From Halobellus captivus (GTDB lineage Archaea; Halobacteriota; Halobacteria; Halobacteriales; Haloferacaceae): a stretch of DNA of 64,000 bases. The stretch lies in the NCBI RefSeq assembly GCF_003697845.1, contig NZ_RDQE01000001.1, positions 186,001 through 250,000 of the forward strand, in the 5' to 3' direction. Shown piece by piece: positions 9,261-16,787 of this stretch (positions are counted from its first letter, which is position 1; each line of letters opens with the position of its first letter). The notes below the pieces were generated by a model. It had not been told where the DNA came from and did not search any database. It worked only from the letters and a program-made list of their open reading frames with translations. Both the position numbers and the translations under genes were made by a program.

Positions 9261-10256
9261 TCAGTCCGCGACCGCCTCGGACTCCCCCATCGTCGCGGCG
9301 GGATCGCGGATCCACAGGTCGCCGAACAGGTCGTCCTGGCGGAGCCGCACCGATCCGCGGTGGGCCATGAACAGCAGCGCGAGGAACGTCATGAACGGGC
9401 GGCCGCCCGCCGACTCCACCTCGGCGAAGAGCACCTCCGAACGTCCGTTCTCGAACTGCGGGCGCAACGCGGCCTCGACTTCGGTTATCACCTCCTCGAT
9501 GTCCTCGTCGTGGGTGCGGTCCGTCGCCTCGCCCGCGGTCGGCTCCCCGTCGCGGCGGAACTCGTCGCCGGCGTGGTAGTCCAGCGTCTGCGTCCCGCGG
9601 CCGTAGCCGCTCGGCGACTCCGAGGTGTCGTACTCGCGGGACCGTTTCCACCACGAGTCGCGTTCCGCCTCGCGGAGCTCGCGGACGAGTTCGTCGAGGG
9701 TCTCCGGCGAGCCTCGGGTGTTCTTGCGGTCGAGCCGCCGGTCCATCTCCGCCTCCAACCGATCGATCGGGTCGAACTCGGGGTCCGCGGGGTCGTCGGC
9801 GCCGCCCTCCATCGCCAGCTCCCACGGCTCCGGCCCCGGCTCGTCGTCCTCGTCGTCGTCCGCCAACATTCCGTCGCTCTTCATCCGGAGGAGGACGCTC
9901 GCGTAGAACAGCGCGCGACCCGTCGTCCGGAGGTCGGTCTCGTCGAGCTTCTCGAGGAAGGCGTCGGTCACCTGTACGATGTCGATGTCCCACGGCTCGA
10001 TCTCGCCCTCCTCCGCGAGCTGGACGAGGAGCTCGACGGGCTCGACCTCGTCGTCGGCGGCGTCGGAAGGGGGATCGCCGGCATCGGCGTCCGTTGCGGC
10101 GGAATCGATGTCGGCGGCGGCGGAGCCGCTGGCGGCGGGATCGGTCGTATCGGCGTCACCGCCGAACGCCGGGGTCGCGCCGTCGCGCTCGCTCGTCAGG
10201 TCCAGATCGGGCACGCCGCCGCCTCCCCCCGCGTCCGCGGAGCCGTCGTCAGTCAT
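9261..10256 (-). CDS. scpA: segregation and condensation protein A
   Basis: 331 aa kleisin. An acidic, low-complexity first 70 residues is followed by the ScpA core (EPVELLVQLAEEGEIEPWDIDIVQVTD), which binds the Smc neck, and a C-terminal winged helix (RPFMTFLALLFMAHRG...). ScpA bridges Smc heads in condensin. It overlaps the smc stop by eight bases and is third in an operon with a coiled-coil gene and smc. No scpB lies nearby. A central Asp/Pro-rich segment is a haloarchaeal linker. Confidence 0.9.
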   Translation of the reverse strand: MTDDGSADAGGGGGVPDLDLTSERDGATPAFGGDADTTDPAASGSAAADIDSAATDADAGDPPSDAADDEVEPVELLVQLAEEGEIEPWDIDIVQVTDAFLEKLDETDLRTTGRALFYASVLLRMKSDGMLADDDEDDEPGPEPWELAMEGGADDPADPEFDPIDRLEAEMDRRLDRKNTRGSPETLDELVRELREAERDSWWKRSREYDTSESPSGYGRGTQTLDYHAGDEFRRDGEPTAGEATDRTHDEDIEEVITEVEAALRPQFENGRSEVLFAEVESAGGRPFMTFLALLFMAHRGSVRLRQDDLFGDLWIRDPAATMGESEAVAD

Positions 10257-13200
10257 CCGCGGTCACCTCCGCGTCCTCGTCGCCGTCGTCGCCGCCGAAC
10301 CGCATCCCGGTCACGGCCGAGAGGTTGTCGCCCTGCATCGTGACGCCGATGGCGCGGTCCGACCGCTCCAACAGCGCCGAGCGGTGGCCGACCACGACGA
10401 ACTGCGCCTCCGCGGCCAGCTCCTCTATCATCTCGCCGACGCGCTCGGCGTTGACCGCGTCGAGGAAGGCGTCGATCTCGTCGAGCGCGTAGAAGGGCGC
10501 GGGGTTGTGCCGCTGGACCGCGAAGATGAACGAGAGGGCGGTCAGCGACTTCTCGCCGCCGCTCATCGCCTCGAGCCGCTGTACCGGCTTATCCGCGGGC
10601 TGTGCCTTCATCGTCAGCCCCTCCTCGAAGGGGTCCTCGGGGTTCTCCAAGAGGAGCTCGCCGCTCCCCGCCGACAGCCGCGAGAAGATGTCTCGGAAGT
10701 GGTCGTTTATCGACTCGAACGTCTCCATGAACGTCGCCTTCTTCTCGGCCTCGTACCCCTCGATCCGCTCCGTGATCGCGTCGCGCTCCTCGGCGAGCAC
10801 GTCCCGACGCTCCTCGAGCGTCTCGAGTTCGGCTTCCACCTCCTCGTACTCGTCTATCGCGAGCATGTTCACCGGCTCCAACGCCTCCATCTCGGCCTCC
10901 AGCTCCTCGATCCGCGACTCGACCTCGTCGATGTCTGGGACCTCCTCGGGGTCGTACTCGCCGACCTGCGACTCCAGTTCGTCTATCTCCCACTCCAGGC
11001 GGTCCCGGCGGTCGGACAGGTCCTCGAGGTCGGACTCCGCGTCGGCGACGAGCGACCGCTGTTCGTCGCGTTTCCGGGTCGCCTCCCGGATCTCCTCGCG
11101 GAGCGCCTCGCGGTCCTCCTTCAGGTCCGCGATCTCCGCTTCGAGGTCCGCGATCGACTCGCGTTTCTCCTCGAGCGTCTCCTCCCTCTCCGCGATGGCC
11201 TCCTCGTGGTCGGCGATCGCCTCCTCGGCCTCGCTCTTTCTGTTCTGTGCCTCCTCGACGGTGTCGTGGAGGTCGTCGACTGCGTCCTCGGCGTACCCCT
11301 TCTCGAGTTCCAGTTCGTTCTGCCGGGCGTCGAGGTCGTCCATGCGGTCCTCCAACTCGTCGATCTCCTCGCGTATCTCGTCCGCTCGCTCCGAGAGCTC
11401 CGGGATCCTCGAATCGGCGAGCTCGGCCTCGATCTCCTCGACATCGGCCTCCAACCGCTCGATATCCGCATTCAGCGCGTCGAGCGTCTCGTCGATCCCG
11501 CTCATCTCCTCGTCGACCGACTCGCGCTCCTCGCGGAGCTCGTCGAGTTCGTCCTCCAGGCCCTCGATCCGAGCCTCCGTCTCGTCGAGTTCCTCCTCGG
11601 CGCGATCGATGTCACCCTCGAGCGACCGGACGCGGTCGGCGGCGTCCGCCTTCCGTTCGCGGGCGTCCTCGATGTCGGCGTCCAACCCGTCGATCTCGGA
11701 CTCGAGCTCCCGTCGTTCGTCCTCCAGACCGCCGATCTCCGTGGCGAGCCGTTCGAGCTTGCCGCCGCCGGACTTCGTGAACGCGTATCGAGAGCCGCCG
11801 CCGGAGCCGCCGGTCATCGCGCCCGACTTCTCGACGAGGTCACCCTCGAGGGTGACCATCCGGTAATCGCCCATCAGCTCGCGGGCGGTGGACATGTCCT
11901 CGACGACGAGCGTCGACCCGAGCACGTACGAGAAGACCGGCTCGTAGCGCGAGTCGTACTCGACGAGGTTCCGCGCGAAGTCGACGACGCCCGGCATGGA
12001 GGGCTTCCGCGGGAGTCCGCGGTCGTCCATCTTCGTGATCGGAAGGAAGGTTGCCCGGCCGGCGTTCCGTCGTTTCAGGTAGTCGATACACGTCGACCCG
12101 ACGCCGTCGTCGTCGACGACGACGTTCGCCAGCCGGCCGCCGGCGGCCGTCTCACACGCCTCGGCGTACTCCGCCTCGACGGAGCCGAGCTCGCCGACCG
12201 CGCCGTGAACGCCGTCGATGCCGCCGCTCTTCACCTCGGTCACCGCCCGGGGCCAGGAGGTGTCGCCGCGCTCGCTCGCGGCCGCCTCCAGCTTCGCGTA
12301 CTCGTTCTGTTTCTCGCGGAGGTCGTCCTCGATCGCCTCCAACTCCTCCTTCCGCTCCGCCTTCTCGGCGAACAGGTCGGCGACGACGTCCTCGATCTTC
12401 GACTCGTTCCGCTCGGCCTTGTCGAGCTCGCCGTGGAGTTCGGAGATCCGCGCGTTCAGCTCGGGGACCTCCTCGCGGGCCGCCTCGAGGTCAGCACGGG
12501 CCTCCTCGACCGCGTTCGAGCGCCGGCGAGCCTCGTCGAGCAGCCGGTCCTTCTCGCGCTGGTGGCGGTGTTTCTCCTCGCGGAGGGACTCGAGCCGTTC
12601 CTTCCGCTCCGCGAGTTCCGTCTTCAGCTCGTCGAACTCGGTGTCCGCGCCCTCGATCTCGGCTTCCACGTCCGCCAGTTCGGAGCGCTTCGTCGCGACC
12701 TCCGACTTGAGCGACGCCTTCCGGACCTTCGTCTCGCGGATCTCCGACTCGAGGTCGTCTATCGTCTCCTGTTTGCGGTCGATCTGGACGAACGCGTTCC
12801 GGCGCTCGGTCTCGGCGTCCTCGGCGCGCTCCGTCGCCGTCTCGATCCTCCCCTCCAGCCGGGAGATCTCGCCTTTGATCTCCTCGATCTCGGAGCGGAT
12901 CGCGATCTGTTCGTCCTCGCCTTTGGTCTCGATCTCGTGGTTGAGGTCGGCGAGGTCCTCCTCGAGGCGGGTGAGCGTCCCCTGTCTGGTGTCGAGTTCG
13001 ACGCGGAGCTCCTCGAGTTCCGTCTCGGCGTCGTCGATCTCGCGTTCGACCTCGGCGAACGAGTCGCGTTTGTCCTCCAGCTCCGAGGCCTTCCGGTAGC
13101 CGCGGTACTGCTCGACCTCCTCGCGGAGCGACCGGTACTCGAGGGCGGCCTCGCGCTCGTCGGAGAGCTGATCGAGCCGGTCACGTTTCTCCTCGATCCG

Positions 13201-13839
13201 GAGGTCCGCCTCGCCGATCCGGTCTTTCACCGTATCGAGCTCCTCGAAGGCGGCCTCCTTCTTCTCGTCGAACTCCGCGACGCCCGCGATCTCGTCGACG
13301 ATCCCCCGACGCTGGTAGGGGGTCATGTTGATGATCTCGGTCACGTCGCCCTGCATGACGACGTTGTAGCCCTCGGGCGTGACGCCCGCGGCCGCGAGCA
13401 GGTCACGGACGTCCGAGAGGTTCACGGAGCGGCCGTTGAGGTAGTAGTACGAGTAGTAGTTGTCCTCGGTCTCCTTCACCCGCCGTTTGATCGTGATCTC
13501 GGAGACGTCGCCGACGTTCTCGGAGCCGGCCGCCGAGACGACCTGCGAGCGGTCGAGCGTCCCGTCCTCGTTGGACAACACGACCGTGACGGACGCCTCC
13601 TTCGGGCCGCCGGACGCCTCCCCGTCGTCGTGGCCGGGATTGTAGATGAGGTCCGTGAGCTTCTTGGCTCTGATCCCGCGAGTTCGGGCGAGTCCGAGCG
13701 CGAACAGGACCCCGTCGATGATGTTCGACTTTCCGGAGCCGTTCGGTCCGGTGACGACCGTGAAGTCCTCGTAGAAGGGGATCCTCGTCGTCCGTCCGAA
13801 GCTCTTGAACCCGTCCAGGACTACTTCAGTGATGTGCAT
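10249..13839 (-). CDS. smc: chromosome segregation ATPase Smc
   Basis: 1196 aa. Walker A is at the N-terminus (VVTGPNGSGKSNIIDGVLFALG), followed by two long Glu/Arg-rich coiled coils that flank a hinge near residues 510-680 (with GIDGVHGAVGELG and NVVVDDDGVGSTCIDYLKRR and the GAMTGGSGGGSR segment). The C-terminal head has the ABC signature (MSGGEKSLTALSFIF) and Walker B (FYALDEIDAFLD). It forms the ring that compacts and separates chromosomes. The stop overlaps scpA, and the start is 21 bases after the upstream coiled-coil gene. Confidence 0.97.
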   Translation of the reverse strand: MHITEVVLDGFKSFGRTTRIPFYEDFTVVTGPNGSGKSNIIDGVLFALGLARTRGIRAKKLTDLIYNPGHDDGEASGGPKEASVTVVLSNEDGTLDRSQVVSAAGSENVGDVSEITIKRRVKETEDNYYSYYYLNGRSVNLSDVRDLLAAAGVTPEGYNVVMQGDVTEIINMTPYQRRGIVDEIAGVAEFDEKKEAAFEELDTVKDRIGEADLRIEEKRDRLDQLSDEREAALEYRSLREEVEQYRGYRKASELEDKRDSFAEVEREIDDAETELEELRVELDTRQGTLTRLEEDLADLNHEIETKGEDEQIAIRSEIEEIKGEISRLEGRIETATERAEDAETERRNAFVQIDRKQETIDDLESEIRETKVRKASLKSEVATKRSELADVEAEIEGADTEFDELKTELAERKERLESLREEKHRHQREKDRLLDEARRRSNAVEEARADLEAAREEVPELNARISELHGELDKAERNESKIEDVVADLFAEKAERKEELEAIEDDLREKQNEYAKLEAAASERGDTSWPRAVTEVKSGGIDGVHGAVGELGSVEAEYAEACETAAGGRLANVVVDDDGVGSTCIDYLKRRNAGRATFLPITKMDDRGLPRKPSMPGVVDFARNLVEYDSRYEPVFSYVLGSTLVVEDMSTARELMGDYRMVTLEGDLVEKSGAMTGGSGGGSRYAFTKSGGGKLERLATEIGGLEDERRELESEIDGLDADIEDARERKADAADRVRSLEGDIDRAEEELDETEARIEGLEDELDELREERESVDEEMSGIDETLDALNADIERLEADVEEIEAELADSRIPELSERADEIREEIDELEDRMDDLDARQNELELEKGYAEDAVDDLHDTVEEAQNRKSEAEEAIADHEEAIAEREETLEEKRESIADLEAEIADLKEDREALREEIREATRKRDEQRSLVADAESDLEDLSDRRDRLEWEIDELESQVGEYDPEEVPDIDEVESRIEELEAEMEALEPVNMLAIDEYEEVEAELETLEERRDVLAEERDAITERIEGYEAEKKATFMETFESINDHFRDIFSRLSAGSGELLLENPEDPFEEGLTMKAQPADKPVQRLEAMSGGEKSLTALSFIFAVQRHNPAPFYALDEIDAFLDAVNAERVGEMIEELAAEAQFVVVGHRSALLERSDRAIGVTMQGDNLSAVTGMRFGGDDGDEDAEVTADD

Positions 13840-14584: not shown

Positions 14585-15175
14585 ATGAGCAAGATCACCT
14601 TCCGAGCCGACGACGACCTCGTCGAGCGGCTGGAAGCGTGTGAGGCCTCCAAAAGCGAGGTGATGCGCGAGGCGCTCCGCGCACACCTCGACGGTACGGC
14701 CGGCGGGTCGGAGACCGACGGCTCCGAGGGCGGCGTGGACGCCGCCCTCTCGGACCGGATCGACGAGCTGATCGCCGACCGGCTCGACGCCGCGTTGGAC
14801 GAGCGGCTCGGGAGTGCGGGGCGTCGCCCGGAAGACGCGTATACGCCGTCTACGCCGGGCGAGATCAACGTAAACGTCACTCTCGACGCTCCTGGGGCCG
14901 ACGACGGCGACGCCCGTGTGACACGGGAGACGGAACCCGAGATCGAGCCCGAGACGCGTAAGACACGCGCCGATCCCGGGATGCAAACGGGCGAAAACGC
15001 CTGTGGCGGATGTGGCGAAAACGTCCCGGAAGACCACGTATACTGCCCGAACTGTGGTGAGAAACAGTCCCACCGTGCCTTCTGTGAGTGCGGCGACGAG
15101 GTCCGAACCGACTGGGCGTTCTGTCCCGGCTGTGGACGACGAACTCCCGCTGCGGACGTGCTCAAGGACAGATAG
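14585..15175 (+). CDS. cdrL: ribbon-helix-helix plus double zinc ribbon regulator (CdrL-like)
   Basis: 196 aa. Residues 1-36 form a ribbon-helix-helix DNA-binding domain (ITFRADDDLVERLEACEASK). A linker follows, then two C-terminal zinc ribbons (CGGCGEN...YCPNCGEK and CECGDEV...FCPGCGRR). It sits directly upstream of the short RHH gene and ftsZ2, the arrangement of the haloarchaeal cdrL-cdrS-ftsZ2 division locus, where CdrL and CdrS control ftsZ2 expression. One GTAAGAC site lies inside its own coding region at 14958-14964. A weak GATACTTG box near 14552 precedes the start. The symbol rests on domain layout and location. Confidence 0.8.
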   Translation: MSKITFRADDDLVERLEACEASKSEVMREALRAHLDGTAGGSETDGSEGGVDAALSDRIDELIADRLDAALDERLGSAGRRPEDAYTPSTPGEINVNVTLDAPGADDGDARVTRETEPEIEPETRKTRADPGMQTGENACGGCGENVPEDHVYCPNCGEKQSHRAFCECGDEVRTDWAFCPGCGRRTPAADVLKDR

Positions 15176-15223: not shown

Positions 15224-15379
15224 GTCTTACGCTCGCCGTTAATTTTATAAGGGTAGCCTCGGTGACTACAACCGCGTAAGACGACCGTCTTACAGACGGC
15301 GTCCGACGAGGGGATGTCCCCGCAGTCGGGCGGTTTCGGCCTGTAAGACGCACGACGTGTGTCGTGGACGTCGTCTTAC
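15224..15379. promoter_or_regulatory. array of GTAAGAC/GTCTTAC sites before cdrS-ftsZ2
   Basis: Five copies of the 7-mer GTAAGAC or its complement occur in 156 bases: 15224-15230 (GTCTTAC), 15276-15282 (GTAAGAC), 15287-15293 (GTCTTAC), 15343-15349 (GTAAGAC) and 15373-15379 (GTCTTAC). Copies two and three form a perfect inverted repeat with a GACC spacer. Copies four and five enclose a second inverted repeat, CACGAC-GTGT-GTCGTG. A sixth copy is in cdrL at 14958-14964. This is the pattern expected for cooperative RHH dimers; CdrL and/or CdrS are the obvious candidates (inference). Confidence 0.75.
15243..15251 (+). promoter_or_regulatory. TATA box for cdrS-ftsZ2
   Basis: TTTTATAAG fits a haloarchaeal TATA box. 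It is about 145 bases before the cdrS ATG, so the mRNA would have an unusually long leader for this group. One GTCTTAC site lies just upstream and four lie downstream in the predicted leader. Confidence 0.55.
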
Positions 15380-15394
15380 CGGGGGAATACAACA

Positions 15395-15574
15395 ATGGAG
15401 CGTGTGACACTACGGATCCCGAAACAGCAGATAGATGAGGTCGAACAGATGGTCGAGACGGGTGAGTTCCCGAACCGGAGCGAGGCGATCCGCTCGGCCG
15501 TCCGCGACATGTTGAGCGAACAGGACGGCGAGCGCGACGAGCGCGGCCGCAACCGCAGCTGGGCCAAGGTGTAG
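15395..15574 (+). CDS. cdrS: short ribbon-helix-helix regulator CdrS
   Basis: 59 aa. It begins [20 protein letters not shown], a complete RHH domain with the DNA-contacting strand (VTLRIPK), then [16 protein letters not shown] and a basic-acidic tail ending RSWAKV. CdrS of Halobacterium and Haloferax is co-transcribed with ftsZ2 and needed for normal division. Here the stop is four bases before the ftsZ2 ATG. The GTAAGAC array upstream is its likely target or that of CdrL. Confidence 0.9.
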
Positions 15575-15578
15575 ATCG

Positions 15579-16787
15579 ATGCAGGATCTCGTTCAGGACG
15601 CCCTCGACAACGCGGAAGCGGAGAAGCGCGAGATGGACGCCAGCATGGACGACGACGAGTTCGGGGACCCCCGTATCGTCATCGTCGGTGCCGGCGGCGC
15701 CGGAAACAACACCGTCAACCGTCTGTACAACATCGGCGTCGACGGCGCCGACACCGTCGCGATCAACACGGACAAACAGCACCTCAAGATGATCGAGGCC
15801 GACACCAAGATCCTCGTGGGCAAGTCGCTCACACAGGGGCTGGGTGCCGGCGGTGACCCCAAGATGGGCGAGCGCGCGACCGAGATGGCCCAGGGGACGA
15901 TCAAGGAGGTGCTCGGCGACGCCGACCTCGTCTTCGTCACCGCCGGCATGGGCGGCGGGACCGGCACCGGCGCCGCGCCGGTCGTCTCGAAGATCGCCAA
16001 AGACCAGGGGGCGATCGTCGTCGGGATGGTCTCGACCCCGTTCAACGTCGAGCGCGCCCGCACGGTGAAAGCCGAGGAAGGGTTGGAGTCGCTCCGTAAC
16101 GAGGCCGACTCGATCATCGTCCTCGACAACAACCGGCTGCTCGACTACGTCCCGAACCTGCCGATCGGCAAGGCGTTCTCCGTGATGGACCAGATCATCG
16201 CGGAGACCGTCAAAGGGATCTCCGAGACGATCACCCAGCCGAGCCTGATCAACCTGGACTACGCCGACATGTCCACCATCATGAACCAGGGCGGCGTCGC
16301 GGTGATGCTCGTCGGCGAGACCCAGGACAAGAACAAGACCCAGGAGGTGGTCAACGACGCGATGAACCATCCGCTCCTCGACGTCGACTACCGCGGTGCC
16401 TCCGGCGGGCTCGTCCACATCACGGGCGGCCCGGACCTCACGCTGAAGGAGGCCGAGGGGATCGCGAACAACATCACCGAGCGGCTGGAGGCGAGCGCCA
16501 ACGTGATCTGGGGCGCCCGCATCCAGGACGAGTACAAGGGGAAGGTCCGCGTCATGGCGATCATGACTGGCGTCCAGAGCGCGCAGGTGCTCGGCCCGTC
16601 GACCCAGAAGCAGGCGGACAAGTCCCGCGCCGCGGTCGACGCCGACGACCTCGGCGACTCCCGATCGCGGGCGGCAGAGACGAGCAACGCGGTTCAGGGA
16701 TCCGGCGGCTCCGATCGCGCCGCCTGGGAGTCGGACGGCGGCACCGAGCCCGTCGAGAAGAACAACGGGCTCGACGTCATCCGCTGA
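15579..16787 (+). CDS. ftsZ2: cell division tubulin homologue FtsZ2
   Basis: 402 aa. GTP-binding features are [16 protein letters not shown], the tubulin signature [11 protein letters not shown] and the T7 synergy loop [11 protein letters not shown]. The Tyr-Ala-Asp-Met version of the last and the linkage to cdrS point to FtsZ2 rather than FtsZ1. FtsZ2 forms the constricting mid-cell ring of haloarchaea together with FtsZ1 and SepF. The C-terminal tail from about residue 355 is disordered and ends in NNGLDVIR, probably a conserved partner-binding peptide. A run of five T residues near 16824 lies between it and the convergent ncsA gene and may end transcription. Confidence 0.95.

Follow-up and report, generated by a model that had tools for sequence, protein, structure and literature searches.

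A conserved heptad cluster before cdrS-ftsZ2 in Halobacteria is a probable CdrL operator and may double as stems of the leader RNA

Gene context and arrangement of the heptads

Within the window, i.e. the whole 64-kb stretch of DNA analysed here, the gene cdrL (14585..15175, + strand) lies ahead of an operon whose first gene, cdrS (15395..15574, +), encodes an RHH regulator and whose second gene, ftsZ2 (15579..16787, +), encodes the division tubulin, as identified by a Pfam tubulin match. The proposal of an earlier note on this DNA that the two genes flanking the promoter region both encode RHH proteins was borne out by Pfam, with a strong match for CdrS (RHH_1, E 4e-9) and one just under the cut-off for CdrL (RHH_1, E 9e-4). 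In the latter protein, the probable binder of the heptads described below, the RHH N-terminus is followed by a CdrL_M middle region (E 5e-10) and a double zinc ribbon (DZR, E 4e-7). Its strand residues K3, T5 and R7 were invariant in 20 genera-spanning sequences, and the AlphaFold model of the monomer was of low confidence (pLDDT 66).

Close upstream of cdrL, a large gene for an SMC-like chromosome-segregation protein was found (10249-13839, -), so segregation and division genes adjoin in this genome. In families f5 and f11 (G241:C11, G388:C130, G066:C81) a second, partial CdrL-like gene directly precedes cdrL, which suggests that the two are tandem paralogues. The Haloferacaceae archaeon XH8 (CP132292.1) has two cdrS loci, near both ends of its chromosome record; its second cdrL frame ends early, possibly reflecting an assembly overlap.

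Between cdrL and cdrS, the five exact copies of the heptad GTAAGAC/GTCTTAC that had been reported from the sequence were all recovered at their coordinates, and are named here S1 to S5. S1 (15224..15230, -) lies just upstream of a conserved BRE/TATA-like promoter element, CCGTTAATTTTATAA (15234..15250, +), so that the TATA-like sequence TTTTATAA (15243-15250) has one heptad upstream and four downstream. S2 (15276..15282, +) and S3 (15287..15293, -) form the left and right halves of a perfect inverted repeat (15276-15293) with a 4-nt gap, and a second palindromic stretch is enclosed by S4 (15343..15349, +) and S5 (15373..15379, -). The sixth heptad, at 14958-14964 (+), is also where the earlier note had placed it, within cdrL.

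The five heptads occupy 156 bp, where about 0.002 would be expected. The window holds eight matches, compared to 3.0 expected, and eight were reached in 2 of 100 shuffles. The whole genome (3.59 Mb, 37 contigs) contains 52 matches, fewer than the 73 obtained with a reversed-pattern control, so the heptad is not enriched genome-wide, which would have counted against the operator, and forms a local cluster instead. Chance, or a genome-wide word, as the source of the cluster was ruled out by the window and genome counts together with the class-wide counts given below.

Conservation and geometry across Halobacteria

Eighty loci from named genomes were fetched through CdrS, 79 of them with upstream DNA. 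In all 79, at least three exact heptads were present at matching positions within 300 nt before cdrS. The S2-S3 pair, searched as GTAAGAC-N3..6-GTCTTAC, was detected in 374 of 391 Halobacteria genomes, compared to 7 with the reversed control, and was single-copy in all but two of the 374. As for the 17 genomes without the pair, three assemblies yielded no cdrS, and the remaining 14 still have heptads, with altered letters or a gap of 2 nt. Among 312 genomes from the rest of the phylum, only 5 had the pair, fewer than the 23 matched by the reversed control. The operator is thus a feature of Halobacteria, and the worry that the heptad might not be conserved in relatives was dispelled.

The individual sites differ in their constancy. 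S2 is invariant across genera; S4 is missing or degenerate in several genera; S5 is kept in nearly all of them, although not in families f5 and f11, in which S1-S3 are present and both S4 and S5 are absent. In Haloquadratum, S3 reads GTATGAC in direct orientation. A Halobacterium-like genome (G063), whose bacteriorhodopsin is 100% identical to the Hbt. salinarum sequence, has four exact heptads plus GTGAGAC before cdrS.

Across 41 genera, the conserved elements of the promoter region are the BRE/TATA, a TGC directly before S2, and the heptads, with TTTATA beginning 32 bp before S2. In most genera S1 precedes S2 by 51-53 bp, and it is found in either orientation at one position, as would be expected if a symmetric dimer reads a box of the form GT-nnn-AC. 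Apart from one outlier at 108 bp, exact upstream heptads are confined to distances of 51-53, 61-65 and 73-76 bp from S2, that is, in steps of around 11 bp or about one helical turn, and in Halorussus the box at 62-64 bp and a variant of S1 make up an inverted pair similar to S2-S3. The centres of S2 and S3 are themselves 11 bp apart, the gap measuring 2-6 nt in some genera. Near-palindromic boxes repeated at about one helical turn, the hallmark sought in an RHH operator, are thus found at this locus. Judging from the distance to the TATA box, transcription would start 1-3 nt before S2, and the S2-S3 pair would cover about +3 to +20.

A heptad within the coding sequence of cdrL

The auxiliary heptad of cdrL (14958..14964, +) reads GTAAGAC across the codons CGT-AAG-ACA. 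It was found in 31 of 31 Halorubrum loci and is kept as NGT-AAG-AC[AG] in 22 genera. In every case of Arg-Lys-Thr the arginine is encoded by CGT, although this codon accounts for about 18% of the cdrL arginine codons, and when Ser, Cys or Gly replaces Arg the codon is AGT, TGT or GGT, leaving the heptad intact. Because conservation at the codon level persists when the amino acid changes, this copy appears to be a DNA site too, and selection acting on the DNA would best explain it. Coincidence as the origin of the cdrL copy was overturned by this conservation and by the codon analysis.

An additional box close to S1 is commoner in genera without the cdrL copy (Fisher p 0.02; 0.001 when GTAAAAC is included), although relatedness among the genera leaves this only suggestive. 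The cdrL copy was only weakly in phase with the promoter sites (R ~0.32, nominal p ~0.02 from non-independent data), and no such phasing is claimed. It is in itself unusual for codon choice to preserve a probable operator site within a coding sequence in many genera.

CdrL rather than CdrS as the probable binder

In Halobacterium salinarum, the only place where ChIP-seq reproducibly detected CdrL lies upstream of cdrS-ftsZ2 (Darnell et al. 2020, PMC7439475). No published motif for the CdrL operator was found in the literature, that paper included, and the cdrL deletion strain described in it carried second-site mutations. CdrL is restricted to Halobacteria and CdrS extends well beyond them (PMC7439475). 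The heptad operator follows the range of CdrL, occurring in Halobacteria only and where CdrL occurs, except for two Halocatena genomes discussed below, and both the S2-S3 pair and the single ChIP site indicate one target per genome.

CdrS could instead bind its own promoter, the heptads being sites of autoregulation. Both regulators have the strand residues at positions 3 (R/K), 5 (T) and 7 (R) in common, and their boxes may differ by as little as one base: from the ftsZ1 and dacZ promoters of ten genera, the CdrS site is predicted to be GTCnGAC-N4-GTCnGAC. This motif occurred 41 times in ten genomes, compared to once for the reversed control, and its presence before ftsZ1 in four genomes and before a PRC-domain gene matches two entries in the table of Liao et al. 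(2021, PMC8406309). However, none of the 20 ftsZ1/dacZ promoters contained GTAAGAC, and only 9 of 124 cdrS promoters contained GTCnGAC. Because the promoter motifs segregate in this way, the CdrL and CdrS sites seem to be alike in their 7-4-7 layout and different at base 3 (A vs C). Moreover, the cdrS-ftsZ2 promoter is not listed among the 18 CdrS ChIP sites of Haloferax volcanii (PMC8406309), so both marks by which a CdrS operator was sought, the predicted motif and a CdrS ChIP peak, speak against CdrS at cdrS-ftsZ2, and the phylogenetic range of CdrS is not matched by that of the operator. CdrS was rejected as the heptad binder on the basis of its different reconstructed motif, and autoregulation by CdrS is improbable. 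The evidence points to CdrL as the protein that would contact the heptads.

Conservation throughout the class, helical phasing, occurrence in single copy, a range matching that of CdrL, and the published CdrL ChIP-seq data for this very locus thus lend strong support to the division-control operator proposed in the earlier note. Regarding the possible sign of regulation, Liao et al. (PMC8406309) argue that activation tends to go with upstream sites, and repression with sites that coincide with the promoter or follow it; the cdrS-ftsZ2 operator has sites of both kinds. As a separate observation, three genera also have the predicted CdrS motif ahead of a hexapeptide-repeat/bactofilin-like gene (G000:C2:42680 and two others), possibly a further cytoskeletal target of CdrS.

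A conserved RNA structure in the predicted leader

A 5' UTR has been drawn for Haloferax cdrS, and in the window the BRE/TATA lies 32 bp before S2, which would place S2-S5 within the mRNA leader. The earlier suggestion that the heptads might give this leader structure was upheld, since a conserved RNA structure was detected both by covariation of the flanks and by folding energies. The leader in the window folds better than its shuffles (z -4.7). To detect covariation without an alignment, we compared the complementarity between the flanks of two sites from the same genus with that between flanks taken from different genera. With genera as the units, by which shared ancestry is not fully removed, the S3/S4 flanks had a complementarity of 3.31 within genera against 2.37 between them (of 5), and the S2/S5 flanks 2.26 against 1.91 (of 3), values reached in 0 of 5000 permutations in both cases. 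The same test revealed no covariation for the flanks of the local hairpins (S2:S3 and S4:S5) or for control flanks. On alignment A2, the structure that combines S2:S5 and S3:S4 gave a covariation of 0.131 compared to 0.066 +/- 0.008 for shuffles (0 of 500), higher than every slid version of itself. Covariation of these flanks spans 39 genera, being strongest for S3:S4 and weaker for S2:S5, so that helices with compensatory changes, as sought in a structured leader, are present.

In the resulting fold, S2 and S5 provide the 5' and 3' strands of helix P1, and S3 and S4 those of helix P2. Hairpin P3 (15294..15342, +), between S3 and S4, has a mean shuffle z of -1.44 across 41 genera (t -7.8), compared to -0.05 for a promoter control, and hairpin P4 (15350..15372, +), between S4 and S5, a mean inner-shuffle z of -1.3 across 19 genera (t -4.3). 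The structured leader ends directly before a GGGGAA conserved in alignment A2; in the window the sequence just after S5 is GGGGGAA (15381..15387, +), a possible ribosome-binding element. The S2:S5/S3:S4 structure was the minimum-energy fold in 117 of 121 leaders and was energetically favoured in 17 of 18 genera. Local hairpins were chosen by RNAalifold at the class level and are slightly more stable in the Halobacterium-like genome; as functional RNA they were rejected, given the absence of flank covariation and energies that favour S2:S5/S3:S4. Searches with Rfam covariance models returned no credible match to the leader.

These data raise the question of whether the heptads serve chiefly as stems in a structured mRNA leader, their recurrence in DNA being secondary. 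Besides the covarying flanks, such a role would account for the fixed orientation of S2-S5 and for the persistence of sites in two genomes without cdrL. In Halobacterium, mRNA and ribosome footprints of the cdrS-ftsZ2 operon are reported to diverge (PMC8303175), which would fit translational control through the leader. However, S1, the further upstream copies and the cdrL copy bear the same word outside the leader, families f5 and f11 keep S1-S3 without S4 or S5, Haloquadratum has its S3 variant in direct orientation, and freely covarying stems would not remain GTAAGAC everywhere. We thus regard a predominantly RNA-based explanation as quite unlikely. Since S4 and S5 can be missing and several copies lie outside the leader, DNA recognition is the common denominator of the sites, and since a DNA box alone needs neither a fixed orientation nor covarying flanks, S2-S5 would have an RNA role in addition.

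Genomes lacking cdrL

A profile search of 12 genomes identified CdrL clearly in 10 and not in Halocatena halophila (record name Actinarchaeum) or YIM A00013, in which no cdrL adjoins cdrS either. The sister species Halocatena pleomorpha has cdrL, and the gene appears to have been deleted in the two others. Both cdrL-less genomes keep S2, S3 and S5, and at one of the loci (L100) S4 has become GTAGGAC, still able to wobble-pair with S3. The presence of sites without cdrL fits either a recent loss of the gene or retention of the sites for the RNA. The two strains belong to the hyphae-forming haloarchaea, which would make the loss of a division regulator notable.

The same two genomes, in which most sites outlast a detectable cdrL, are what favours a different DNA-binding protein as the user of the boxes, with CdrL recruited or bound nearby. 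Set against them are the single S2-S3 pair per genome, as expected for a single-target regulator, the coincidence between the ranges of the operator and of CdrL, and the invariant RHH strand of CdrL, which is suited to reading DNA; this possibility is consequently very unlikely.

Discussion

We consider it likely that the heptad cluster is the operator of CdrL, with S2-S5 doubling as stems of the leader RNA in most lineages. Each near-palindromic GT-nnn-AC heptad would be the site of one CdrL RHH dimer. Two dimers 11 bp apart on S2-S3 would sit over the predicted transcription start, and a further dimer would occupy S1, about five turns upstream, outside the BRE/TATA and on the same face of the helix, with an auxiliary site around 320 bp upstream, within cdrL. 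CdrL occupancy would most likely limit initiation at the cdrS-ftsZ2 promoter, through repression or tuning, and S1 and the cdrL site may stabilise a cooperative or looped complex. Interference with initiation, rather than the block to elongation considered in the earlier note, is the mode favoured by the geometry of the sites. In the mRNA leader, S2 would pair with S5 and S3 with S4 to form a three-way junction, which stops directly ahead of the possible ribosome-binding element and may modulate translation. Contact of CdrL with the heptads, the start of transcription, repression, looping and translational control are all inferred.

More tentatively, and with rather less than even confidence, we propose that the heptads are written in two codes, serving as CdrL boxes in the DNA, the cdrL-internal box included, and as a three-way-junction leader in the RNA, in which two mutually exclusive folds (S2:S5/S3:S4 or the local hairpins) would gate translation. 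If so, a single set of sequences would couple the transcription of the FtsZ2 operon to its translation throughout an archaeal class.

CdrS/CdrL is among the few regulatory circuits known to bear on when archaea divide. The present analysis supplies the probable cis half of this circuit, namely an operator, its geometry and a motif for each sister regulator (base 3 being A or C), with which binding, specificity swaps and the logic of the promoter can be tested directly. In addition, the leader RNA might explain why mRNA and ribosome footprints are reported to disagree on the operon.

Concerning known systems, the locus, the regulator and the bound region are those of CdrL at cdrS-ftsZ2 in Halobacterium salinarum (PMC7439475), to which the present analysis adds the heptads, their spacing, the cdrL-internal site, conservation throughout the class and the leader RNA. 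The sites of CdrS in Haloferax volcanii (PMC8406309), a sister RHH regulator, are similar in their predicted 7-4-7 layout with centres 11 bp apart. However, the predicted CdrS box is GTCnGAC, with many targets and positions mostly upstream of the promoter, whereas the cdrS-ftsZ2 operator uses GTAAGAC, has one target and lies on both sides of the TATA box. In bacteria, dimers of RHH repressors such as omega of pSM19035, MetJ and Arc read short direct or inverted boxes cooperatively. Unlike those bacterial arrays, the boxes described here span about 420 bp, reaching from within the upstream gene to the leader; they hardly vary throughout an archaeal class, and some of them coincide with an RNA structure.
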